In this document: positions 3,898 to 17,731 of the stretch, piece by piece | Layout of the letters: each line of letters begins with the position of its first letter | Position numbering within the stretch: position 1 is the first letter of the stretch | NCBI GenBank assembly: GCA_019973575.1 | Contig: BPUI01000003.1 | Coordinates: 434,001-498,000, forward strand | Length of the DNA stretch: 64,000 nt | Direction: 5' to 3' | From: Gemmatimonadetes bacterium T265 | GTDB lineage: Bacteria > Gemmatimonadota > Gemmatimonadetes > Gemmatimonadales > Gemmatimonadaceae | Translations under genes and position numbers: made by a program | Notes under the pieces: model-generated | What the model was told of the DNA's origin: nothing | Databases searched by the model: none | What the model saw: the letters and a program-made list of their open reading frames with translations, nothing else

Positions 3898-5895
3898 TCA
3901 GCGCGCCGTGGCCAGGTCGCGCACCGCGCCCGCCAGCGTCCGCACCTTCGCCGCGTCTCCCGCCCCCGCGGCATCGCCGTCCAACTGCGCCGCCAGCCGC
4001 GTCAGCGCGGTCCGCCGCCCCGCGCCCGACGCCTGCTCGGCGCCCGCGAGCGCCTGCCGCGCCGCGCTCACCTGCCCGGCCGCCAGGCCCTGCGACCGCT
4101 CGAGCTGGTCGACGTAGGCGCGCGCGAGCGCGAAGCTCGCCGGCCACGTGTACCGCGGCTGGTCCTGCACGTTCAGGTGGTCCAGGCGGACCGACTTCGC
4201 CGCGTCGATCTCGTTCTGCGAGAGCAGCGCGCTCGGCGCGAGCTCCAGCACGTCGAGCCCGCGCGCGATCTCGGAGCTCACGATCACGCCGTTGTACCAG
4301 TACGCCGACCACGTGCCCCCCATCGCCATGCGCGTGGAGTCGACCGGGCCGCGGTCGAAGAAGGCGATCTCGCGCGGGTGCTGCGCGTCGGTCCAGTCGA
4401 ACACCGAGATGCCGCCCTGGTACCACGACTGCACCATCACGTCGCGCCCCGGGATCGGGATCAGCGAGCCGTTGTGGGCGACGCAGTTCTCCTGCGGGGT
4501 CTGCGGCGCCGACATCTTGTAGTAGCTCTGGAACTGCAGCTGGTGGTTCGCGATCGTGAAGATCGCGTCCGCCCCCCAGTCGTGCGGGTCGCTCGCGCGG
4601 CACTTCGGCTGCCCGCCGCCGCCCCACTCGTCGCTGAACAACATCTTCGTGCCGTCGTTGTTGAACGTCGCCGAGTGCCAGTACGAGAAGTTCGAGTCGG
4701 ACACCGCGGCGAGGCGCGTCGGGTGCGCCGGGTCGTGGATGTCGAGCAGCAGGCCGTAGCCCTCGCACGCGCCGCCCGCGAGGCCGATTGCCGGGTAGAG
4801 CGTGATGTCGTGACACGACGTCACCCCCGGGTGCGAGGCGTTCGCGGCCTGACGGTCGCCCATGCGCCGCGCGATCATGGCCGGAATCGCCGCCCGCACC
4901 GCGGCGCTGTCAGCGCCCGTCGCCGCGCCGGTCCCGCCCCGCGCCTTGACGACGCTGTCCAGCATGGGCTGCACGAACATCGGGGGCAGCACCATCTCCT
5001 GGCCCATGATGTTCGCGATGAACGCCCCCCGGGCGCGCGCCGCGGCCACCTCGGCCTGGTCGTCCGGGGCGGCACCGTGCGCGGTCGGCGGGGCCTTCAG
5101 GTCGTTGAAGATCCGCGGCGAGCTCACGATCGCGGCCTGCTCCGGGTGCGCAAGCGGCACCTTGATGACCTCGATGCGGAAGCGCGCGGTGTTCGGGTCG
5201 TTCGCGTCGCGCACGCAGCCCGGGAGCTCGCTCGCCGACCGGATCGGCGCCGACCCGGACACGTACACGTACACGTTCGCCGGGTCCTTCGGGTCGACCA
5301 GCAGACTGTGCGTGTGCGAGCCGCGGCAGGTCTGCACGTTCGCCACGCTCCGCGGGTGCGCCACGTCCGAGATGTCGAACACACGAACGCCGCGGATCCG
5401 GTCGGCGCTCACCGTGTCCTTCACGCCCTGCGCGCCGCAGTCGATGCGGCCGGTGTTCCCCTCGGCCGACACGAAGAGCAGGTTCTTGTAGACCGACACG
5501 TCGCTCTGCGACGCCGGGCAGTAGTTCGCGAACGTCAGGACGGGCTTCGCCGGGTTCGAGATGTCCCACACCTGGTAGCCGTTGTAGCTGCCCTGGAACA
5601 CCTGGTTGCCGAGAAACGCCAGATCGGAATTCGTGCTGCCGAGAAACTTTTCCGACGGCGGCGTCTTCGAGAGCACGCGCATGTTCCACGCGGCCTCGCC
5701 GGCGTCCATCAGCCCGGCGCGGAGCCCCACGCGCGGGTCGGGGGTCGGCGCGGCGGCCGACATCTTCTGCGCGGACGCAGCGCCGGCCGGTTGGGCGGCG
5801 GTGCTGCCCTGAGCGTTCGCGGGGCGGACGGACGCCGCGGCGCACACGAGGCCGAGCGTGGCGGAGAGCACCCGAGCGGGAGAGGGCGAGACCAT
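3898..5895 (-). CDS. Exported LVIVD-repeat beta-propeller protein
   Basis: 665 residues. Residues 1-29 form a signal peptide ending near ANAQ. The body has repeated propeller blades such as GYQVWDISNPAKPV, GVRVFDISDVAHPR and VFDWTDAQHPREIAFFD, the pattern of the LVIVD family of extracytoplasmic beta-propellers. The C-terminus (about 580-665) is Ala-rich and helical. It includes CHDITLYP and a tract of conserved Cys that could form disulfides. No enzyme motif is seen. It lies 40 bp downstream of the DUF305 gene on the same strand, so the two are probably co-transcribed and act together in the periplasm or at the cell surface. Function unknown for the family; the name rests on the repeats. Confidence 0.85.
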   Translation of the reverse strand: MVSPSPARVLSATLGLVCAAASVRPANAQGSTAAQPAGAASAQKMSAAAPTPDPRVGLRAGLMDAGEAAWNMRVLSKTPPSEKFLGSTNSDLAFLGNQVFQGSYNGYQVWDISNPAKPVLTFANYCPASQSDVSVYKNLLFVSAEGNTGRIDCGAQGVKDTVSADRIRGVRVFDISDVAHPRSVANVQTCRGSHTHSLLVDPKDPANVYVYVSGSAPIRSASELPGCVRDANDPNTARFRIEVIKVPLAHPEQAAIVSSPRIFNDLKAPPTAHGAAPDDQAEVAAARARGAFIANIMGQEMVLPPMFVQPMLDSVVKARGGTGAATGADSAAVRAAIPAMIARRMGDRQAANASHPGVTSCHDITLYPAIGLAGGACEGYGLLLDIHDPAHPTRLAAVSDSNFSYWHSATFNNDGTKMLFSDEWGGGGQPKCRASDPHDWGADAIFTIANHQLQFQSYYKMSAPQTPQENCVAHNGSLIPIPGRDVMVQSWYQGGISVFDWTDAQHPREIAFFDRGPVDSTRMAMGGTWSAYWYNGVIVSSEIARGLDVLELAPSALLSQNEIDAAKSVRLDHLNVQDQPRYTWPASFALARAYVDQLERSQGLAAGQVSAARQALAGAEQASGAGRRTALTRLAAQLDGDAAGAGDAAKVRTLAGAVRDLATAR

Positions 5896-7723: not shown

Positions 7724-7858
7724 CGTCGCACCTCACGATGTGCCATATGTGCCGTGCGCCGCGCCCCACGCCGCGCCACACCGCGCGCCGGCACCGCGCC
7801 CGCGCAGGGCGCGGGCACGACGGCAGCGGCGACACGGCACTCAGGCGACACGACGAAG

Positions 7859-8170
7859 TGACCTCAGCGTACACGGACGACGGCGCTCACCACCCACGGC
7901 GTGTGTCCGACAACCGGACCCGCGCCGATGTGACCTCAGCATACACGCTCGGCCGTCCGGCCGGCTAGGGGCCGACCCCCGGCCGGCCCTCCTCCGCGGG
8001 CCAGCGCGCACCGAACGGGGCCGACGCGGCTCTGAGATGGGTGCAAACGCCTCGTCGACTGGCTGTCCACCCACCCGGAGCTGGAAACCCGGTGTGTATG
8101 GTGAGGTCACATCCGGGGAGATCGCGCACGCGTGCATCAACGCCCGGGCTGCCCGTGTAGCCTGAGGTCA
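7859..8170. repeat. Four 17-bp iterons, two direct and two inverted
   Basis: Copies: 7859-7875 TGACCTCAGCGTACACG (+), 7931-7947 TGACCTCAGCATACACG (+), 8093-8109 TGACCTCACCATACACA (-), 8154-8170 TGACCTCAGGCTACACG (-). TGACCTCA and TACAC are invariant. The pairs are 72 and 61 bp apart and face each other. The last copy lies just before GTG 8178 and contains the only SD-like GAGG there, so Rep binding could also repress rep. The position beside a Rep gene makes these Rep-binding sites likely. Confidence 0.8.
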
Positions 8171-8342
8171 CCACGGCGTGAGCGCCGACCCACGGTCCGG
8201 GACCGAAATCGCTGCCGCGCCAACGCGACGCAGGTGCGACGCATCGTTCGTAACTCGATCATTGGCAACAGCTTATGTAGTGTCGGTCGTCCGCGGGTTG
8301 TTCGCGCGCGGGGCGCGGCGGTCCGTGCGCGTTAGTTGCTGG

Positions 8343-8367
8343 GGTCTTCTCTGCTTTCAGAAAGACC
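8343..8367 (+). promoter_or_regulatory. Hairpin in the rep leader
   Basis: GGTCTT (8343-8348) pairs with AAGACC (8362-8367) across a 13-base loop, in the segment between the iterons and the chosen rep start. It could be a leader hairpin affecting rep translation or an antisense-RNA target. Short stem, so only suggestive. Confidence 0.3.
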
Positions 8368-8504
8368 ACAACGACTCACGAGCCGGCACCGGGCCGAGCC
8401 GGCGCTCCACGCCGCCACGGGTGCCGCCTTGTCGTCGCCCGGCCGCGGCTTCATACTGCCCTGCCCGGCCGCCGGCCGGGATTCGCCTGCCGCCATCGCC
8501 TTCG

Positions 8505-10466
8505 GTGCCTTCGACCCCTCTTGCCGCCGACCAGCGCGCGCTGCTGTCCGTCGTCGGCGTCGGCGAGTTGCCGCAGCCGATCCCGGCGGGGCTGCTCACC
8601 CTGCCGATCTTTCGCGCCGCGGTCAAGCAGGGCGAGGTCGACGCGAACGGTGTCCTTCCCGAAGCCGCGCGGCGCGCGCAGGTGATCGTCGCCGAACCGG
8701 CGGGGCGCTACACGTACTACGAGATCACCGGCGACCCGAAGCTCGGCCTCCCTTACGGCGGCGACGCAGACGTCCTGCTCGCGATGGCGGCGCTCGCCGA
8801 CCGCGCCGACGCCGAGGGGCGTCCGCACGTTCACCCCGTCACGGGCGAGTTCGTCGCGCCGAGCCTGCGGATGCTCGCCCGCGTGCTCGACCTCGACATG
8901 ACCAAGGACCGCGCCGAGCGGATCAAGGGCGCGCTCGACCGACTCGCGGCGGTGCGGATCCGGGCGGCGCGGTTGCGGCAGTTGGACGAGGTCGCGGGCC
9001 GGGCCGATCCTGTATCGCTCCCGGCGGGCAACGCGCACCCCATCTTCCTCGAGGGCGCCGCGCGCGAGGAGGGTGCCGGGGCGCCGGGGCGGGTCGTGCG
9101 CCGGCCGCGCGTCCCGCGCGACGTCGCCGCCGCGCTCCCCGGCGGCGAGTGGGTGCCGGAAGCCGAGGGGATGGAGTACCTCATCACCTACGCGTGGCGC
9201 ACCGAGTACCACCGCACCGCGCGCGGCGAGGACTGGATCCAGAAGCTGCAGATCAACCCCGCGCTGCTCGCCCAGGCCGAGCGCGGGTGGGTGGGGTGGA
9301 TCGACTGCCCGACGCACGCGCGGCTCACGCGGCCGATCGCGAAGCGGTTGTACCAGCTCACGGCGAACGCGCAGGCGCGCCAGGCGCCGCTCCGGTTCGA
9401 GCTGGCCGCGTTGCGCCAGCTCTGCGGCATCGCGGGCGGTACCAAACACGTGCGGTCCGCGCACGTCCGCGATGACGTCCTCGCCGCCGCGCAGGAACTC
9501 GTCGCCGCCGACGTGCTCGCCGGCGCGGAGGTGACGTCGGTCGTGCGCGGCCGCTACGTCTTTCACTTCGAGCCGGGGCTGCGACTGCGCGTGGCCGGCT
9601 GGCTCCGCGGGGTCGGCACCCCGGACTTCACGGAGCAGCGCGTGCTCCGCCTGCTGCTCGCCTCGCTCGACGTCGCGCCGCGCGCGGCGGAGCAACTCGT
9701 GGCCGAATCGGCGGGCCAGGTGCGGCAGATGCTGGCCTACGTCTTTTTCCAGCGCGAGCGCGGCCAGGCCGTGCACGCGCCCGGGCGGTACGTCGTCGAC
9801 GGCGTCGCGAAGGGGTGGAGCTACGACGGGAACGAGGAATTCCAGCGCTGGTTCCGCGAGCGCGTCGCCCACGCGCGCCCGGCCCCGCGCCTCGCCGTCG
9901 GCGGCGACGCCGGCGCGTCGTCGGACCGCGCACCCGTGCTCGCTCCGCACCCCGCCACGCCCGCGGTCCTGAACGGCGGTGCCCCGGGAGCCGCCGTCGC
10001 CGCGGGGGGCGCGGTTACCCCGGCGCCGCGCGACGCCGTCGACCCGCTCCCGCTCGCCCTGCCGCCCCTGGGCGCCGACGAGTCGGGGTGGTGGGACGCC
10101 GTGCTGTGCGAGCTCCTCCCCGCCTGGCACCCGCTCGTGCGGGCGTACCTGGCGCGCGCGCGCCCGGCGTGCCGGACCGGCGTCACCCTGCTCGTCGTCG
10201 CCCACTCCGACGGCGAGAGTGCTCGGCTGTCGCGCGAGGCGCACCTCCTCTCCGACGCGCTCGCCCGGGCGTCGGCGGGCGCCGCGTGTGAGGTACTCGT
10301 GTTGAGCCCCCAGCAGTGGCGCGCGCGGGCGGCCGACGTCGGGGCGGCCGACGTCGGGGCGGCGGACGTTGGAGGGGCCGACGTGCGGACGTCCGATGGG
10401 GGCGAAGGCGGGCCCCCCCCGGTCCCCCAGCCCGCGGCCGTCGCCGGCCCGCGCGGCGTCGCGTAG
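8505..10466 (+). CDS. Plasmid replication initiator protein, RepA/RPA type
   Basis: Initiator that should bind the iterons and open the origin. About 653 residues from GTG 8505; the frame is open from GTG 8178 and another GTG lies at 8421, so the start is uncertain. The N-terminal half has the initiator-family pattern YYEITGDPKLGLPYGGDADV, then a long helical/winged region with RLTRPIAKRLYQLTAN and a second wing before FHFEPGLRLRVAG. The C-terminal third (beyond about residue 470) is Ala/Pro-rich, then has a globular part (WWDAVLCELLPAWHPLVRAYL), and ends in four ADVG-type repeats. It is longer than most RPA initiators (about 300-400 residues) because of this C-terminal part. parA follows 167 bp downstream. 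Confidence 0.85.
   Translation: MPSTPLAADQRALLSVVGVGELPQPIPAGLLTLPIFRAAVKQGEVDANGVLPEAARRAQVIVAEPAGRYTYYEITGDPKLGLPYGGDADVLLAMAALADRADAEGRPHVHPVTGEFVAPSLRMLARVLDLDMTKDRAERIKGALDRLAAVRIRAARLRQLDEVAGRADPVSLPAGNAHPIFLEGAAREEGAGAPGRVVRRPRVPRDVAAALPGGEWVPEAEGMEYLITYAWRTEYHRTARGEDWIQKLQINPALLAQAERGWVGWIDCPTHARLTRPIAKRLYQLTANAQARQAPLRFELAALRQLCGIAGGTKHVRSAHVRDDVLAAAQELVAADVLAGAEVTSVVRGRYVFHFEPGLRLRVAGWLRGVGTPDFTEQRVLRLLLASLDVAPRAAEQLVAESAGQVRQMLAYVFFQRERGQAVHAPGRYVVDGVAKGWSYDGNEEFQRWFRERVAHARPAPRLAVGGDAGASSDRAPVLAPHPATPAVLNGGAPGAAVAAGGAVTPAPRDAVDPLPLALPPLGADESGWWDAVLCELLPAWHPLVRAYLARARPACRTGVTLLVVAHSDGESARLSREAHLLSDALARASAGAACEVLVLSPQQWRARAADVGAADVGAADVGGADVRTSDGGEGGPPPVPQPAAVAGPRGVA
10329..10388 (+). 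repeat. Four tandem 15-bp units in the 3' end of rep
   Basis: Units at 10329, 10344, 10359 and 10374 read GCGGCCGACGTCGGG with increasing divergence and encode AADVG-like pentapeptides. The first two are identical. Such in-frame units can expand or shrink; they lie in a region predicted to be disordered, so the effect on Rep is probably small. Confidence 0.8.
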
Positions 10467-10486
10467 CCCGCCGACCGACCCGTCCC

Positions 10487-10501
10487 GTTGTGCGGCACAA
10501 C
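10487..10501. promoter_or_regulatory. parS-like palindrome upstream of parA
   Basis: GTTGTGCGGCACAAC, a 7+1+7 perfect palindrome in the 167-bp gap between rep and parA. The same sequence in inverse orientation occurs at 11480-11494 in the 3' end of parA. Two exact copies confined to the partition operon point to a ParB-binding centromere site or a parAB operator. The usual chromosomal parS consensus was not seen. Confidence 0.7.
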
Positions 10502-10633
10502 ACCCGGTGCGTGGCGGCCGCGGCACGCCGCCGCTAGCATCCCGCGCAGTATCCCACGACGGCGGATCGCGCCGCCACTTCCGCCGCGGCGTCGCCCGGC
10601 GCCCCACCGCTTCCGGCTTCCCCTCGGTCCCTG

Positions 10634-11644
10634 ATGGCCCGCGTCCTCGCGGTCGTAACGCAGAAAGGCGGCGTCGGCAAGACGACGACGGCTACCAACC
10701 TCGCCGCCGCCGTCGCCGGCCAGTACGCGCTTCGCACGCTGGTGCTCGACCTCGACCCGCAGTGCGACGCGACCGCGCTCCTGCTCGGCCACGAGGCCCA
10801 CGCCCGCGCGTCGATCCGCGACGTGCTCTGGGAGCCGCGCCCCGCCGGGGACGTCATGGTCGCGTCCGCCTTCCACCCCGACCTGCTCGTCGTCCCGGGC
10901 TCCGGCGAGCTGGCCCACGACGAGAAACACGTCGGCCCCGCGCAGTGGGACGAGATCGCCCAGGACGCCCGCCTCACCCTCATCGGCGGTGTGCCCAAGG
11001 ACGTCGACCTCGTCGTCATCGACACGCCCCCCTCGCTCGGCCTCTGGCTCCACTGCGCCCTTTCCGCCGCCGACGGCTACGTCCTCCTCGGCGAACCCGG
11101 GATCCTCTCGGCCCGCGGCATGGGCGCCTTCCTCGAGACCGCCGACCGGGTCGCGCAACACATCAACCCCGACCTCCGCCGACTCGGCGTCGTCGTCAAC
11201 AACGTGCGCCCGACCGCCGAAGACGAGGGCTTCGTCTCCATGTACCGCCAGCAGTTCGGGGACGAGATCCTCGCCGTCATCCCGCAACGCACCGCGATCA
11301 AGGAGGCGGCGCGCCTCGCCACCCCCGTCGAATTCTTCGCCGGCGCGCCGCCCGACGCCCGGGGCAGCTACCGCGACATCGCCGCCCGCGTGCTCACCGA
11401 ACTCGGACTCCCGCGCCGCGCCCGCCCGGTCCTCACCCCGCCTCGTCGGACGGGCGCGGGGCGGGGGGGCGGACCGGTCGTTGTGCCGCACAACCACGGC
11501 CCGCGCCCCCGACCGGCCAAGAGCGCCCTGCCGCCCGCGCCACCGCCGCCGGCCGACACCACACCGCGTCGGCGCCGGTCGGGCGGCGCGGCGGAGCAGG
11601 GCACGACGCCGGCCGCCGCTTCGGGAGCGTCGCGCCGTGGCTAA
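10634..11644 (+). CDS. parA: ParA-type partition ATPase
   Basis: 336 residues. Deviant Walker A KGGVGKTT at 11-18, Walker A-prime region LVLDLDPQ at 36-43 and Walker B-like VVIDTPPSLG about 127-136 mark a ParA/Soj ATPase that segregates replicon copies by nucleoid-based gradients together with ParB. No N-terminal HTH extension, as in type Ib/chromosomal-like ParA. Residues after about 255 are a Pro/Arg-rich tail absent from typical ParA proteins; the second parS-like site lies in its codons. The 3' end overlaps parB by 8 bp (GTGGCTAA), so the two are translationally coupled. Confidence 0.95.
   Translation: MARVLAVVTQKGGVGKTTTATNLAAAVAGQYALRTLVLDLDPQCDATALLLGHEAHARASIRDVLWEPRPAGDVMVASAFHPDLLVVPGSGELAHDEKHVGPAQWDEIAQDARLTLIGGVPKDVDLVVIDTPPSLGLWLHCALSAADGYVLLGEPGILSARGMGAFLETADRVAQHINPDLRRLGVVVNNVRPTAEDEGFVSMYRQQFGDEILAVIPQRTAIKEAARLATPVEFFAGAPPDARGSYRDIAARVLTELGLPRRARPVLTPPRRTGAGRGGGPVVVPHNHGPRPRPAKSALPPAPPPPADTTPRRRRSGGAAEQGTTPAAASGASRRG
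11480..11494. promoter_or_regulatory. Second parS-like palindrome, inside parA
   Basis: GTTGTGCCGCACAAC, the exact reverse complement of the site at 10487-10501, 993 bp away. It encodes VVPHN in the ParA tail, so the palindrome rather than the peptide may be what is conserved. Confidence 0.65.
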
Positions 11645-12830
11645 ATCCGGCCGCCGCGACCGCAGCGCCGACATCGCACGGGTTGGCGCCCGGATCTTCC
11701 GCCGCCCGGACGCCCGGCCGGATGCCCGGCCAGACACGCAACCGGACGCCGTCGATCCGTCGGGGGCCGATCCGGCGGGCGGCGATGCGCCCACGGACGG
11801 GCAGGGGACCGCGCCCGGCGGGCAGCGCGCCCAGCACCCGGCAACCGCCGAGCGCACCGACCGCCGCACGCGCCGCGACGTGTTCGACCTCGACCCGCGT
11901 CGCGTCGTCGAGCGCGGGCCGTACATCCGCGAGTGGGACGAGCAGGGCGAGGAATTCGAACGCCTCGTCGAGGCGGTGCGCGCGCGAGGCGAGATCGACA
12001 CGCCGATCTGGGTGCGCAGTCACGGGCCGACCGGCCGGCGCGAGTTCGTCCTCGTCGCGGGCAAGGGCCGCCTGCGCGCCGCCCTCCGGAACGCGCTCCC
12101 CACGGTCCCCGTCCGCGACCTCGGCGACCTCGACGACCGGCAGGCGGTCGCACGCCAGGTCGAGGAAAACCTCAATCGCGAGGACATGACCCCGGCCGAA
12201 ACCGCGCACGCACTCTGGCGCATGCACGGGTTCGGCGACTCGATTTCCGAGATCGGCCGGCGGCTCCACCGCGACAAGGGGTACGTCAGCTACATGGTGA
12301 AGGTCGGCGAGGCGTTCGACGCGCTCGGCCCCGCCGAACAGGGCCGCCTGACCCGGCGCGGCGCGCTCCAGGTCCGCCAGTGCCAGACGATCGGCGCCCT
12401 CGTCGACGTCGAGGCACGCGTCGCGGCCCTCCGACGACAGTTGGCAACCGGCCCCGCCGCGGACGTCGACGGGGCCGAGGGTGCCTCGGCCCCGTCCGTG
12501 GTGACTCCCTCGCCCGGGACCGAGGGCGCCGGTGAGCGGGCCGACACGCGGCGGCGCGCCGACGAGCAGACGCCGTTCTACGCCCGCGCGATCCGCAACG
12601 GGCGCACGTTCCGGATGCGCTGGGTCGAACAGGACCTCCGGACCGACCCCGCCGCGATCGTCGACGGCTTCGTCCGCGCCGTGCAGGAGGAACGGGCGCA
12701 GCTCACGGAGGCGCTACGACGGCTCGAAGCCGAGGGCGGGGCAGGGAAGGGGACCGCGCGCGACGCGATCGCGCGCGCCCGGCGCGCGCTGGAGCGGCAG
12801 ATCACCGCCCCGCCCCCAACGCCGCGCTGA
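11637..12830 (+). CDS. parB: ParB-type partition protein
   Basis: 397 residues from GTG 11637, which overlaps the parA stop by 8 bp. Residues 1-80 are disordered with RPDA repeats. The ParB N-terminal domain (about 83-190) includes FDLDPRRV, AGKGRLRAAL in place of the usual GERRxRA CTP-binding box, and ENLNREDMTPAE. The HTH (about 200-225) is ISEIGRRLHRDKGYVSYMVK. The C-terminal module (about 320-362, TFRMRWVEQDL ... DPAA ... GF ... V) also occurs in the orphan ParB-like protein at 15.3-16.1 kb. It should bind the two palindromes and load ParA. Converges with, and overlaps by 29 bp, the M1 gene. Confidence 0.93.
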   Translation: MAKSGRRDRSADIARVGARIFRRPDARPDARPDTQPDAVDPSGADPAGGDAPTDGQGTAPGGQRAQHPATAERTDRRTRRDVFDLDPRRVVERGPYIREWDEQGEEFERLVEAVRARGEIDTPIWVRSHGPTGRREFVLVAGKGRLRAALRNALPTVPVRDLGDLDDRQAVARQVEENLNREDMTPAETAHALWRMHGFGDSISEIGRRLHRDKGYVSYMVKVGEAFDALGPAEQGRLTRRGALQVRQCQTIGALVDVEARVAALRRQLATGPAADVDGAEGASAPSVVTPSPGTEGAGERADTRRRADEQTPFYARAIRNGRTFRMRWVEQDLRTDPAAIVDGFVRAVQEERAQLTEALRRLEAEGGAGKGTARDAIARARRALERQITAPPPTPR

Positions 12831-15273
12831 GCGCCGCCCGCACCGTCACCCGCGACTCGCGCGCGAGCGCTCCCGCGATCGTCGTCCGACCCCCCGGCCC
12901 GCCGATCGCGCCGAGCTGCCGCGCCGCCGCGACCGCGAAGAGCGGGTCGGCGTCGGCGAGCGACCGCGTCGCCACCGCCACCGCGCGCGTCCGGTCCGGC
13001 CACGCGGCGAGGAGCCGCAACGCCTCGACCCGCAGCTCCCGCGGCTCGTCCGGACTCGTCGCCGCCTCGAGCGCGGCGAGACCGGCCGCGTCGGGCCGCC
13101 GCACGAGCCGCGACGCCGCGACCCCGCGCATGCCGAGCGACCCGCCGTGCGCGACGCGATCGACGAGCAACGCCGTGCCCTCGGGCGCGAGCGCGGGATC
13201 GTACACCGAGAGCGCGGCGGTCTGCACGGCCGTGCTCGGGTCGTGCTGGATGAGCGCCACCGCCGCGGCCTGCACGCCCGCGCTGTCGCGCACGGCCAGC
13301 GCACGGATCGTCGCCGCGCGGACCTCGCTCGACGGGTCGGCGAGCGCCGCACGAACGACCGCCTCCGACTCGGGGCTCGGGTCGCCGGCGAGCTGCCGCA
13401 CCGCCGCGGCCCGCAGGTGCGACGACTCGTCGTTGAGCGCGATCAGCCGCCGCGCGGCGCGCGCCGCCGTGTCGGCGGAGGCGGCGAGCTGGCCGAGCGC
13501 CCACCAGCGCGCGGTGAAGTCGAGGTCGTGCCGGGCGAGCGCGGCCAGCTCCGCCGGCGTCTGGTCCGTCGTGACCGTCCCGAGCAACCACCCGCCCTCG
13601 TCGAAGCGGAACGAGATCGGCGCGCCGGGGAGCGGAATCTCGAACGTCTGGTGCGCCGCCGTGACGTCGATCTCGCGCCGGACGACCGCGTCGCGCGTGA
13701 CGACGCGCACCGTCGCGGGAAAGCGGAAGAAGGGGTGCGTCGCGTCGATCCGCTGCGTCTCGTCCACCGTGAGCCGGAGCGTGCGCGTCCCCGGGTCCCA
13801 CGCCCGCGCCACGCGCACCTTCGGGTACCCGATCCCGTACGCCCACTGGTCGAAGAACCAGTCGAGGTCGCGGCCGGTCGCCCTCTCCATCGCGACCGCG
13901 TAGTCCGCCGTCTCGACCGGCCGGTACGCGTTGTCGGTCAGGAAGCGCCGCATCCCCGCCCAGAACAGCGAGTCGCCGACGAGCCGCCGGAGCTGGTGCG
14001 CGAGCTGCGCACCCTTGGGGTAGACGTGGCCGCTGAAGAAGATCTGGATCGGGTCCGTGCCCGCGCGCGCGCCGAAGACGAGCGGCCGCTCCTCGTTCAG
14101 GTCCGCGGCCATCGCCTCCCGCTGCTGGCCGATCCAGTTCCACTGCGCCGCCTCGCGCCCGCGGCTCTGCTCCTCCTGCACGCTCTCCATGTAGGTCGTC
14201 AGCCCCTCGTTCACCCACGCGTGCGCCCACTCGGCGGTCGTCGTGAGGTCGCCGAACCACTGGTGCGCGAGCTCGTGCGCGGTGAGCCCCCGGCCGCTCC
14301 GCTCCGGCTCCGACGCGGCGTCGTGCAGCGCGAGGTCGGTCTGCGTCGTCGCCGACACGTTCTCCATGCCGCCGTAGGTGAAGTCGGGGATCACCGCCTG
14401 GTCGTACTTGGCCCAGGGGAAGTTCACGCCGAGCACGCGCGAGTAGGTCTCGATCATCGCCGGCGTCTCGCCGAAGGTGCGCCAGGCCGCGTTCACCGTG
14501 TCGGGCGCGACCCAGTACTCGACGGGGATGCCGCGCCAGCTGTCGTGGAGCACGGTGAACGGCGCCGCGACGATCGAATACAGGTACGTGGACGCGGGCT
14601 TCTCCTGCGACCAGTGCCAGACCTGCTGGCGGCGGTCCGCGGTGGGCGTCACGCTCACGAGCCGGCCGTTGGACAGCACGCGCATGCCGGTGTCGGCGGT
14701 GACGAGGATCTCCCACGTCGTCTTGTCGTTCGGCGCGTTGTACGTCGGCACCCAACTCGGCGTCTCGATCGCCTCCCCCTGCGTCCACACCGTCGGCCGC
14801 CGCGGCACGAAGTACATCCCGCGCTCGGGCCGGCCGTGGTAGCGGAGCGTGAACTGCACGGTGTCGCCCCGCGCGGCCCGCCGCGGCAGCCGCACCGTCA
14901 CGCCCGCCGTGTCGCTCACGTAGCGGAGCGGCCGCCCGAGCGCGTCGAGCGCGGCGTCGATCGTCAGGTTCGAAGCGTCGAGCCGCACCGTGTCTGTCGG
15001 CGCCGCGGTGATCACGAGCCGCGTCGCGACCTCCCCCGTGACGCTCCGCTGGGCGAGGTCGAAGCTGATTGCGATCCGCTGGTGCAGGAGGTCAAAGACG
15101 CGGGCGCGCTGCGGCCAGCGCGTCGGCGGCACGTACACGCCGACCTCGCCCGTCCGCCGCGACGTGGCCGGCGCCCCCGGGCGGGCCTGTGCGACGAGCG
15201 ACGAGGGAAAGAGCGTACACAGGAGGCACACGCCCGGGCGTGTGCGCGGGATGGCGGAAGAGCGACGGGGCAT
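12802..15273 (-). CDS. Exported M1 family zinc aminopeptidase with HEAT-like C-terminus
   Basis: 823 residues. Signal peptide about 1-29. M1 motifs are complete: exopeptidase box GGMEN at 301-305, zinc site HELAH at 333-337 and third ligand E356 (in WVNEGL), 19 residues later as required. After about residue 590 come short helical repeats with PSSEVRAATIRALA-like units, resembling HEAT/armadillo repeats, in place of the usual ERAP-like C-terminal domain. It should remove N-terminal residues from peptides in the periplasm or outside the cell. It sits between the partition genes without an evident link to replication; the 3' end overlaps parB tail-to-tail. Confidence 0.93.
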   Translation of the reverse strand: MPRRSSAIPRTRPGVCLLCTLFPSSLVAQARPGAPATSRRTGEVGVYVPPTRWPQRARVFDLLHQRIAISFDLAQRSVTGEVATRLVITAAPTDTVRLDASNLTIDAALDALGRPLRYVSDTAGVTVRLPRRAARGDTVQFTLRYHGRPERGMYFVPRRPTVWTQGEAIETPSWVPTYNAPNDKTTWEILVTADTGMRVLSNGRLVSVTPTADRRQQVWHWSQEKPASTYLYSIVAAPFTVLHDSWRGIPVEYWVAPDTVNAAWRTFGETPAMIETYSRVLGVNFPWAKYDQAVIPDFTYGGMENVSATTQTDLALHDAASEPERSGRGLTAHELAHQWFGDLTTTAEWAHAWVNEGLTTYMESVQEEQSRGREAAQWNWIGQQREAMAADLNEERPLVFGARAGTDPIQIFFSGHVYPKGAQLAHQLRRLVGDSLFWAGMRRFLTDNAYRPVETADYAVAMERATGRDLDWFFDQWAYGIGYPKVRVARAWDPGTRTLRLTVDETQRIDATHPFFRFPATVRVVTRDAVVRREIDVTAAHQTFEIPLPGAPISFRFDEGGWLLGTVTTDQTPAELAALARHDLDFTARWWALGQLAASADTAARAARRLIALNDESSHLRAAAVRQLAGDPSPESEAVVRAALADPSSEVRAATIRALAVRDSAGVQAAAVALIQHDPSTAVQTAALSVYDPALAPEGTALLVDRVAHGGSLGMRGVAASRLVRRPDAAGLAALEAATSPDEPRELRVEALRLLAAWPDRTRAVAVATRSLADADPLFAVAAARQLGAIGGPGGRTTIAGALARESRVTVRAALSAALGAGR

Positions 15274-15322: not shown

Positions 15323-16108
15323 TTAGTCGCGGGAACGCCGCTCTTCGAGGTCGCCGTCCAACTCCGCCCGCGCCAGCTCGTCCACGAACGGTGCGCGGCC
15401 GACCGCCCCGGCCTGCGCGGGCCGTCGGCCGCGTGCCCGGTCGCGTTCGGCCAGGAACTCCTCCATGCGAGCCCGGTGTCCGATGAGCGTCGCGCGCACG
15501 CGCTCGTTCAGCTGGCGGAGTGAGAGCTCGTCGTACCCGGCGGGCGGTGTGGCCGTCCCGCGTCCGGACCGGCCGGGTGCGGGCCGCGCCGGGCCGATGT
15601 CGCCCGCCGCCCGGCGCAGGCGGGACACGACCTCGTCCGTCGTCTCGCGCACGAACGCCTCGAACCCGGCGAGCGCGGCCGCGGGGTCACGCCGCGCCGC
15701 GTCCTCGTCCCACGCGTAGACGAACGTGCTCCGCCGCGACGGCGCGTCGGGCGGCTCGGGGAGCGGGTCTACGTGGTCGGGGCCGATCGGGGTCTGATTC
15801 CACTGTCCCGGCCCGCCCGCCCGCGCCCGCCGGCGGGTCGGGGGCGGCGCGCCCGCGAGCCGCAGCGCGGCCGTCCGCAACGACGCCGCGTCCGGATGAC
15901 GGCTCACGAGGGCCTGCGCCGCCTTCAACGTGAGGTGCGGCACCCGCAGGCGGTCGCGCGCTTCCGGTGGCAGTTCGGCGAGCGCCCGCCCGAGGCGGCA
16001 CACCACCGACACGTAGCCGGCGCTCTTGCGGTAGCGCCGGCCCAGGTCCGCCTGGGTTACGCCCGGGGCGCGCGCGAGCTCGGCGAAGAGCAGGGCGAGG
16101 TCGACCAC
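15323..16108 (-). CDS. Orphan ParB-like HTH protein lacking the CTPase domain
   Basis: 261 residues from GTG 16108, which has GGAGG four bases upstream; the frame is open to 16291 but the extra 61 residues are Arg-rich and unlike a domain. Residues 8-75 match the ParB/KorB HTH region (GVTQADLGRRYRKSAGYVSV, then PHLTLKAAQALVSRHPD). The N-terminal CTP-binding domain is absent. Residues 128-167 (TFVYAWDED ... RDPAA ... GF ... VRE ... LRR) match the C-terminal module of the neighbouring ParB. It could modulate partition, repress the operon or bind the 26-bp palindrome upstream. Function inferred from similarity only. Confidence 0.7.
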   Translation of the reverse strand: MVDLALLFAELARAPGVTQADLGRRYRKSAGYVSVVCRLGRALAELPPEARDRLRVPHLTLKAAQALVSRHPDAASLRTAALRLAGAPPPTRRRARAGGPGQWNQTPIGPDHVDPLPEPPDAPSRRSTFVYAWDEDAARRDPAAALAGFEAFVRETTDEVVSRLRRAAGDIGPARPAPGRSGRGTATPPAGYDELSLRQLNERVRATLIGHRARMEEFLAERDRARGRRPAQAGAVGRAPFVDELARAELDGDLEERRSRD

Positions 16109-16654
16109 ATGTCCTCCGCGCGGCGTGCCGACGGATTCCCGTTTGACCCGCGCCACGTCCGATCGGAGAGGGCGACCGGTCCGATTGCCCCGCTCACGCG
16201 ACGCTTCGTCGCGGGTGCGCGTGCCCTTCGCCGCGCTCACGGTCCGCCCGGCCGATGTCCGGCACACCCACCCGGCGTGCTCGCCGTACACCCGCTCCGG
16301 GCTTGAGCGCTGCAGGCGCGTACGACGCCGACCGATGTGTGCCAGATCGTCGTGCCCGGCCGGGCACGACGAGGTAACGGACTGTGTGACATCGAGTTAC
16401 GGCGAATACACCTGATGTTGGCGACTGCGGATCTCGTTGATGAACTTCTCCGCGCAGTTTAACCGCTAAAAGCATTGTCACCCGGCGAGTAGGTTATGAG
16501 AATGTGCCTTTTGAGAACCTTGTTGGTTCGCGCCGGTCGGCACTAGGCTGCGGGCTCGTTCGCCCAGCCGCTCGCCGCTGCGACCGCCGGAACACGCCGG
16601 CGCGTCGCTGAGTCCCAGTCGCGCTCGCCTTCCGTCGCATCCGCCCCCTACTCT
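16109..16654. other. Intergenic control region with 26-bp palindrome
   Basis: 546 bp between the orphan ParB-like gene and the divergent integrase. It holds the perfect palindrome at 16347-16372 and a much more AT-rich stretch (about 16376-16530, with GTTTAACCGCTAAAAGC and TGAGAA repeated at 16497 and 16512). Composition and position suit a promoter/operator region or the core site of the recombinase. No convincing coding sequence. Confidence 0.5.
16347..16372. repeat. Perfect 26-bp palindrome
   Basis: Left arm TCGTCGTGCCCGG is followed directly by its exact reverse complement. Uninterrupted palindromes of this length are rare by chance. It lies 239 bp upstream of the orphan ParB-like start and 282 bp upstream of the integrase start. 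Candidate dimeric-repressor operator, ParB-like binding site or recombination site. Confidence 0.75.
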
Positions 16655-17731
16655 GTGACTGAGCAGCCATCCGGTCCCGACGACCCCGCGACACACGGCG
16701 AGCCGTCCGAACCGCTCACCCGAGCGTTGGTGCCGCGGGCCGACGGTCTCGTCGACGGTGGCCTCGTCGTCGCAGCGGGCGACGCGGTCGTCCTCCGCGG
16801 GATCGCGGAGAGCTTCTTCGCGCGGTACGCCGGGACGACGCTCCGCACGTATCGGAGCAAGCTCCTCGCGTACGCCGCCTGGCTCGGCGTGCCGCTCGAA
16901 CATCTGCCGGAAGCGTTGCTGGCGCGCGGCGCGGCACGCGTCCACCTCGACCTCGAGCGCTACCGCGCGCACCTCCGGGACGAGCGCCGCGCGTCGCCGG
17001 CCACGATCAACGGGCACCTCGCGGCCCTGCGCTCGCTCGTGCGCTTCCTCCGACGCACGCACGCGTGCACGTGGACCCTGGACGTGCCGTCCGAGCGCGC
17101 GGTGCCCTACCGCGACACGGCCGGGCCGGGCCTCGCCGCCGTGCGGGCGCTGCTGCGCGCGGCGGCACGCCAGCCTGAGCCGCGCAAGGCCGCGCGCGAC
17201 GTCGCCCTCGTCCGCCTGCTCGTCGACCGGGCGCTCCGGCGGAGCGAGGTCGTCGGCCTCGACCTCGCGCACGTGCGCCGGGCTGGGGCCGGGATGCCGG
17301 ACGCGGTCCTCGTGCGCGCGAAGGGCCGGGCGGAGCGCGAGCTGCTCACCCTGCCGCCCAAGACCGCCGCCGCGCTCGGCGCGTGGCTCGCCGCGCGCGG
17401 CGCCGAGCCGGGGCCGCTGTTCGTGTCGCTCGACCCCGGGGCCGGCCGGCGCGGGCGCGGCGGTCGGACGCGGGCCGCGCTCGAGCGCCTCACCGGCGAG
17501 GGCGTCGCCCGGATCCTCGCCGCGCTGGCGGAGCGGGCGCGGCTCACGGCCCCGGTACGCCCGCACGGACTCCGCCACACGGCGATCACGGCGCTCCTGG
17601 ACGCCGGGGCCGGGCTGCGCGAGGCGCAGCGGTTCAGCCGCCATGCGGACCCGCGCACGCTCATGCGCTACGACGACAACCGGACCGACATCGCGGGCGA
17701 GATGGCGCGCCGCGTGAGCGACCTCGTCTAG
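16655..17731 (+). CDS. Tyrosine recombinase / integrase
   Basis: 358 residues from GTG 16655. N-terminal SAM-like core-binding domain about 48-145 (TLRTYRSKLLAYAAWLGV, ATINGHLAALRSLVRFL). Catalytic domain with R195 (ALRRSEV), K223 (RAKGR), H304-x-x-R307 (HGLRH), H330 and nucleophile Y339 (LMRYDDN): the complete set. Size and layout fit plasmid-borne XerC/D-like or phage-like integrases. Likely roles are multimer resolution of the replicon or integration of a mobile segment; its place beside the partition genes favours resolution. No attachment-site duplication was found in the window. Confidence 0.93.
   Translation: MTEQPSGPDDPATHGEPSEPLTRALVPRADGLVDGGLVVAAGDAVVLRGIAESFFARYAGTTLRTYRSKLLAYAAWLGVPLEHLPEALLARGAARVHLDLERYRAHLRDERRASPATINGHLAALRSLVRFLRRTHACTWTLDVPSERAVPYRDTAGPGLAAVRALLRAAARQPEPRKAARDVALVRLLVDRALRRSEVVGLDLAHVRRAGAGMPDAVLVRAKGRAERELLTLPPKTAAALGAWLAARGAEPGPLFVSLDPGAGRRGRGGRTRAALERLTGEGVARILAALAERARLTAPVRPHGLRHTAITALLDAGAGLREAQRFSRHADPRTLMRYDDNRTDIAGEMARRVSDLV

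Follow-up and report, generated by a model that had tools for sequence, protein, structure and literature searches.

Two copies of a replicon-specific 15-bp palindrome as candidate parS sites of a rep-parA-parB module in Gemmatimonadetes bacterium T265

Introduction

Palindromic parS sites that are private to a secondary replicon, some of them within par genes, are already known from Thermus, the Burkholderiales and the repABC replicons (PMC4409726, PMC5450999, PMC9040568). The parS sites of chromosomes and of repABC replicons are even 16-mers (PMC4409726, PMC9040568). In repABC each replicon has a palindrome of its own, of the type GTTNNNNGCNNNNAAC, which is found upstream of repA and close to the repA/repB junction and has GTT...AAC ends (PMC9040568). 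On the megaplasmid of Thermus thermophilus one site, the 14-bp even palindrome parSm AAGGACGCGTCCTT, lies within parBm and is bound solely by its own ParB (PMC4409726). The Bsr systems of the Burkholderiales serve several replicons, each with its own parS, a 16-bp palindrome with a central CG, and their ParB proteins have a narrow specificity (PMC5450999). KorB of RK2 recognizes the operator OB TTTTAGCGGCTAAAA (TTTTAGC-G-GCTAAAA, taken from the oligonucleotides in PMC11790492). Its phosphate-binding box GARRYR has no Glu and the protein still hydrolyses CTP; R117 is required to bind the nucleotide and N146 to hydrolyse it (PMC11790492). ParT of SCP2 demonstrates that a ParABS-like system can work without CTP, and its inverted-repeat parS apparently lies in the ParB-like gene itself, inside the coding sequence (PMC12260392).

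Here we describe a parAB locus in a 64-kb stretch of DNA (the window, C3:434001-498000; contigs are designated C1, C3 and so on) for which two exact 15-bp palindromes had been proposed as candidate parS sites. Like the Thermus system, it belongs to a large secondary replicon and has a palindrome in a par gene that is unlike the chromosomal consensus; however, the sequence is different, and one palindrome precedes parA and the other lies at the end of that gene, with neither in parB. The palindrome GTTGTGC-S-GCACAAC resembles OB of KorB in its odd length, the central S and the inner C-S-G, and both proteins have a degenerate GERRxR box. Whereas KorB is a global repressor with many operators across the plasmid, only two sites are present here, both at parAB, and KorB was the weakest reported match of the window ParB in the PDB search (E=0.05). 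The locus shares with repABC the private palindrome, its placement and its ends, but this palindrome is odd, with 15 bp, and an RPA-type Rep stands in the place of RepC. The RepB model TIGR03454 matches the window ParB at E=2e-15 with 56.9 bits, below the curated cut-off of 201.5, and the 16-bp GTTNNNNGCNNNNAAC parS is missing, which places the locus outside RepABC. As in the Bsr systems, several replicons of the genome have their own palindrome, although those of Bsr differ in length and centre. In difference to ParT, the window ParB retains a recognisable ParB_N domain.

Results

Organization of the rep-parA-parB module

The contig C3 has a length of 651,870 bp, and no end overlap was detected in the 6-kb ends compared. 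Read 5' to 3', the module consists of iterons, the gene of an RPA-type Rep, site 1, parA, site 2 and parB (Table 1), which is the plan of a maintenance module of a plasmid or secondary replicon. The iteron-like repeats form two inverted pairs (7858-8171), and this region is a candidate replication origin. As expected for ParABS, a gene for a Walker-type ParA ATPase is located directly upstream of parB, and a palindrome that is rare elsewhere lies near parAB. The GTG at 11637 as the start of parB is supported by the N-terminal pattern MAKxxxRxxSAxI, which the protein has in common with its relatives. About 4 kb past the par module a tyrosine recombinase is encoded, a possible resolvase of the replicon.

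Table 1. Positions of the features described in the text. Window coordinates unless a contig or locus is named; negative numbers are distances from parA.
Feature	Position	Strand	Sequence	Remarks
Iteron-like repeat	7858-7874	+	GTGACCTCAnnnTACAC	pattern scan
Iteron-like repeat	7930-7946	+	GTGACCTCAnnnTACAC	pattern scan
Iteron-like repeat	8094-8110	-	GTGACCTCAnnnTACAC	pattern scan
Iteron-like repeat	8155-8171	-	GTGACCTCAnnnTACAC	pattern scan
Replication initiator ORF	8178..10466	+		RPA family PF10134, just over cut-off; start codon uncertain
Candidate parS site 1	10487-10501		GTTGTGCGGCACAAC	rep-parA intergenic; 13-bp core 146 bp upstream of parA start
parA	10634..11644	+		Walker-type ATPase, AAA_31 E=1.3e-30
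Candidate parS site 2	11480-11494		GTTGTGCCGCACAAC	tail of parA frame, codons 283-287 (VVPHN)
parB	11637..12830	+		GTG start; ParB_N domain; parA stop overlapped by 8 nt
HTH-only ParB-like gene	15323-16291	-		
KorB operator-like sequence	16458-16470		TTTAACCGCTAAA	1 mismatch from RK2 KorB operator core
Tyrosine recombinase gene	16655-17731	+		Phage_integrase
C1 palindrome	C1:1524698-1524713		TGTGGCACGTGCCACA	beside C1 parAB
C1 palindrome	C1:1527620-1527635		TGTGGCACGTGCCACA	beside C1 parAB
HTH-only ParB-like gene	C4:213059-214105			
HTH-only ParB-like gene	C5:119703-120800			
dif-like element	C4:214054-214077		GGCCGATAAG-N5-TTATCAACC	
dif-like element	C5:120671-120694		GGCCGATAAG-N5-TTATCAACC	
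dif-like element	C6:4735-4758		GGCCGATAAG-N5-TTATCAACC	
Palindrome, window (C3)	-146		TTGTGC-G-GCACAA	
Palindrome, C4	-125		TTCACG-N-CGTGAA	same genome
Palindromes, G017 and G043	-79/-398/-428 and -172/-301		TTCAAC-S-GTTGAA	nearest ParAB relatives, same family; one central A/T variant
Palindromes, G275, G323, G369	-120, -123, -110		TTTACC-G-GGTAAA	another family of the class
Long inverted repeat, L101	~5093-5151		GTAAAGACAG(A/G)TGCCTTGCTCCGG...CCGGAGCAAGGCATCTTTAC	upstream of parA
Long inverted repeat, L102	~5046-5107		GTAAAGACAG(A/G)TGCCTTGCTCCGG...CCGGAGCAAGGCATCTTTAC	upstream of parA

The P-loop of ParA (KGGVGKTT) starts at residue 11, and the N-terminal HTH extension, a trait of type Ia plasmid ParA proteins, is absent. 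The conserved part ends near residue 264 and is followed by a low-complexity tail of 72 residues rich in Pro, Arg and Gly, whereas the ParA proteins of relatives stop soon after the ATPase domain, without such a tail. The G+C content at codon positions 1/2/3 is 0.77/0.48/0.94 in the body of parA and 0.83/0.82/0.85 in the tail, where the near-equal values mean that there is no coding signature. Possibly the tail is in effect the spacer between parA and parB, read through and under almost no constraint. Site 2 is located in this tail. The earlier description of one site as lying within parA coding sequence is formally correct, as the site does fall in the reading frame, but not remarkable, as it is found only beyond the conserved ATPase domain.

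Within the genome the palindrome is unique to the par locus

Both sites are exact 15-bp odd palindromes with identical arms and are spaced 1 kb apart. The original prediction had added that no other occurrence of the 15-mer could be found and had suggested a genome-wide count as a check. In the whole genome (5,629,403 bp, 6 contigs) only two exact copies were found, both within the par locus, and none with one mismatch, so the 15-mer is not frequent across the replicon. Judged by its base composition, the genome would be expected to contain about 0.008 exact copies. Twelve places match with at most two mismatches (10 with two mismatches and the 2 exact copies), compared to 14 for the reversed-pattern control. 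Within the window there is no further copy at up to two mismatches, and two copies with three mismatches correspond to the chance level. The consensus of the conserved chromosomal parS, a 16-mer of the type TGTTTCACGTGAAACA, is missing from the window at up to three mismatches. Among 149 related genomes one additional exact 15-mer was detected (G011); it lies within a glycosyltransferase-like gene unrelated to par and away from par genes, and was rejected as a chance occurrence.

Of 2000 dinucleotide shuffles made from the 2.55-kb par segment (10301-12850), 2 contained a repeated odd 15-bp palindrome. When the whole 64-kb window was shuffled, repeated palindromes of GC only or mostly GC were common and palindromicity alone therefore proves little, but in 60 such shuffles no repeated palindrome with at least 5 A/T was obtained. 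The window has 75% GC and contains 62 perfect palindromes with arms of at least 7, so that two unrelated palindromes might be thought to coincide in a GC-rich genome. For this pair such a coincidence is hardly credible: it is set apart by its A/T content, by identical arms at 1 kb distance and by its uniqueness in 5.63 Mb.

Site 1, 146 bp upstream of parA, is where regulation of the operon would be expected to take place. The palindromes could hence be operators at which the rep-parA-parB operon is autoregulated through ParB or a different repressor, and have hardly any centromere role or none. KorB is chiefly a repressor (PMC11790492), and in pAMI4 the repABC parS alone was insufficient for stability and the control of transcription was ascribed to the sites that precede repA (PMC9040568). 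However, site 2 is located about 850 bp into the operon, which is odd for a simple operator, and the module has no other ParB-like or repressor gene. Moreover, if a single ParB is the only one to use these sites, they could serve both partition and repression, and we consider a purely regulatory function improbable.

Palindromes at related parAB loci and the half-site code

The genome has three ParB_N genes, on C1, C3 and C4, and each of these loci has its own palindrome, which is confined to that parAB locus. On C1 the palindrome TGTGGCACGTGCCACA is present in two copies and on C4 GTTCACGNCGTGAAC in three, in both cases only beside the respective parAB genes. The candidate chromosomal parS TGTGGCACGTGCCACA has diverged from TGTTTCACGTGAAACA; several relatives retain GTTCCACGTGGAAC or GTTTCACGTGAAAC.

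A perfect odd 13-bp palindrome with at least 5 A/T was found upstream of parA at 7 of the 8 informative related loci, the nearest ones at -79 to -172 (Table 1); the locus of G345 (L100) is without such a palindrome. Per locus, shuffled sequence contains such a palindrome within 650 bp with a probability of 0.009-0.085. As the loci with palindromes stand for about four independent lineages, together they far exceed what chance would give, with an exact figure that varies with the way independence is counted. Apart from the chromosomal palindrome, all of these sites are odd and have a 13-bp core TT...AA, most of them with a C-S-G centre. Different recognition helices of ParB go with different half-sites: KSPGYVS with TTTACC, FSAGRVS with TTCAAC and HRDKGYVS of the window ParB with TTGTGC. 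The half-site TTGTGC was found in no relative, so that its exact sequence is not backed by a phylogenetic footprint.

A second copy at L103 (one mismatch, in parA at aa 241) was not counted, as it overlaps the conserved coding stretch LYRVS and may be a coincidence. The plasmid collection contained only distant RepB/ParB matches (at most ~40% identity), which were not used for sites. The genome contig collection yielded distant ParB proteins of Streptomyces and gammaproteobacteria, whose palindromes share nothing with the window site. The viral contigs searched contained no relative. At two loci of the TTTACC type (L101 and L102) a long inverted repeat is present upstream of parA, possibly a promoter operator or attenuator.

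HTH-only ParB-like proteins

ParB-like proteins with an HTH only and no CTPase domain are encoded once each on C3, C4 and C5, and those of C4 and C5 are 72% identical. Because C5 and C6 have ParA and Rep and no ParB_N gene, the HTH-only proteins are candidates for unusual centromere-binding or regulatory proteins. The C4 and C5 proteins have the helix KS(A/P)GHVS, near-equal to KSPGYVS of the TTTACC-type ParB proteins, and TTTACC-A-GGTAAA and TTTACT-G-GGTAAA are located about 35 bp upstream of their genes. Judged from sequence, this is a suggestive cross-check of the pairing between helix and half-site. The rule is incomplete, since two TTTACC sites on C6 have no adjacent HTH gene. On C4, C5 and C6 a dif-like element occurs once per replicon, each 22 bp from a palindrome of the TTTACC-N-GGTAAA type, possibly a Xer site paired with a ParB-HTH operator on the three replicons. 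In the window, the sequence resembling the KorB operator core lies between the HTH-only and the tyrosine recombinase genes.

With the palindromes directly after rep, and with an integrase and an HTH-only protein encoded in the same window, Rep or one of these other plasmid factors might bind them without any relation to ParB. This is very unlikely in our view, as Rep has separate and distinct iterons upstream, the HTH-only proteins of C4 and C5 pair with TTTACC-type sites instead, and the parA genes of relatives are accompanied by palindromes in the same place.

The CTP box of ParB

The window ParB matches PF02195 (ParB_N) with 26.5 bits, 0.2 bits above the cut-off of 26.3. Using phmmer it was aligned to Spo0J (1vz0) at E=1e-10 over residues 105-279. 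This alignment extends through the HTH, and MAFFT pairs the protein with the HTHs of ParB proteins; Pfam HTH_ParB gave no match. The AlphaFold2 model, based on an 11-row alignment, is poor (pLDDT 47, pTM 0.29).

The phosphate-binding box AGKGRLRAA (GKGRLR) deviates from the canonical GERRxR by loss of the Glu and the first Arg, whereas Gly142, Arg145 and Arg147 are retained; that the box is unusual was thus correctly recognized in the original prediction. In the same genome the box of the chromosomal ParB reads AGERRLRAA, and plasmid-type relatives have DGTHRLEAA, YGRRRLHAA, YGMRRWLAS and SGHRRLAAA. The Glu is missing in all plasmid-type ParB proteins compared and the first Arg in the window ParB and the G017 group. 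Among the proteins compared, the exact GKGR form is found in the window ParB only. The ENLNRED motif is intact, and R145 and N178 (in ENLNRED), by motif the equivalents of R117 and N146 of KorB, are both present.

From these motifs a working CTP clamp is the likeliest state of the protein and a modified CTP switch is possible. The further suggestion that the switch may be altered found no support in the form in which it was made, given that the plasmid-type clade is variable at this box, that KorB is active without the Glu and that the key Arg and Asn are kept. A broader proposal, in which the class has a family of plasmid ParB proteins that read odd KorB-like palindromes via a simple helix code and the CTP switch of the window ParB is modified or lost, appears unlikely.

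Discussion

We regard it as highly probable that ParAB of the 652-kb replicon has its cognate parS sites in the two palindromes. This reading rests on a 15-mer that is unique genome-wide, on its position in a rep-parA-parB module, on the private palindromes of C1 and C4 and on positionally equivalent palindromes at related loci, which together support well what had been predicted. By analogy with characterised ParABS systems we infer how the system would operate. A ParB dimer would bind one site with one helix-turn-helix per arm, and would then probably load as a CTP-dependent clamp and spread around the rep-par region. Sister replicons would be separated by movement of the ParB-parS complex, driven by ParA, an ATPase bound to the nucleoid. 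In addition, the site upstream of parA probably serves the repression by ParB of its own operon.

The kind of plasmid-sorting system is ordinary, but the parS sequence is new, and no published description of it was found in open-access text. It provides a concrete centromere sequence, open to testing, in a genome with several replicons from a group that has received little study. The palindromes of the three ParB_N loci and of their relatives form a natural series for the choice of half-sites by the ParB helix. The window ParB is in addition a degenerate-box case for the question how much of GERRxR a CTP clamp needs; if its GKGR box does reflect a modified or lost CTP switch, this ParB would partition its replicon with altered or no nucleotide control.
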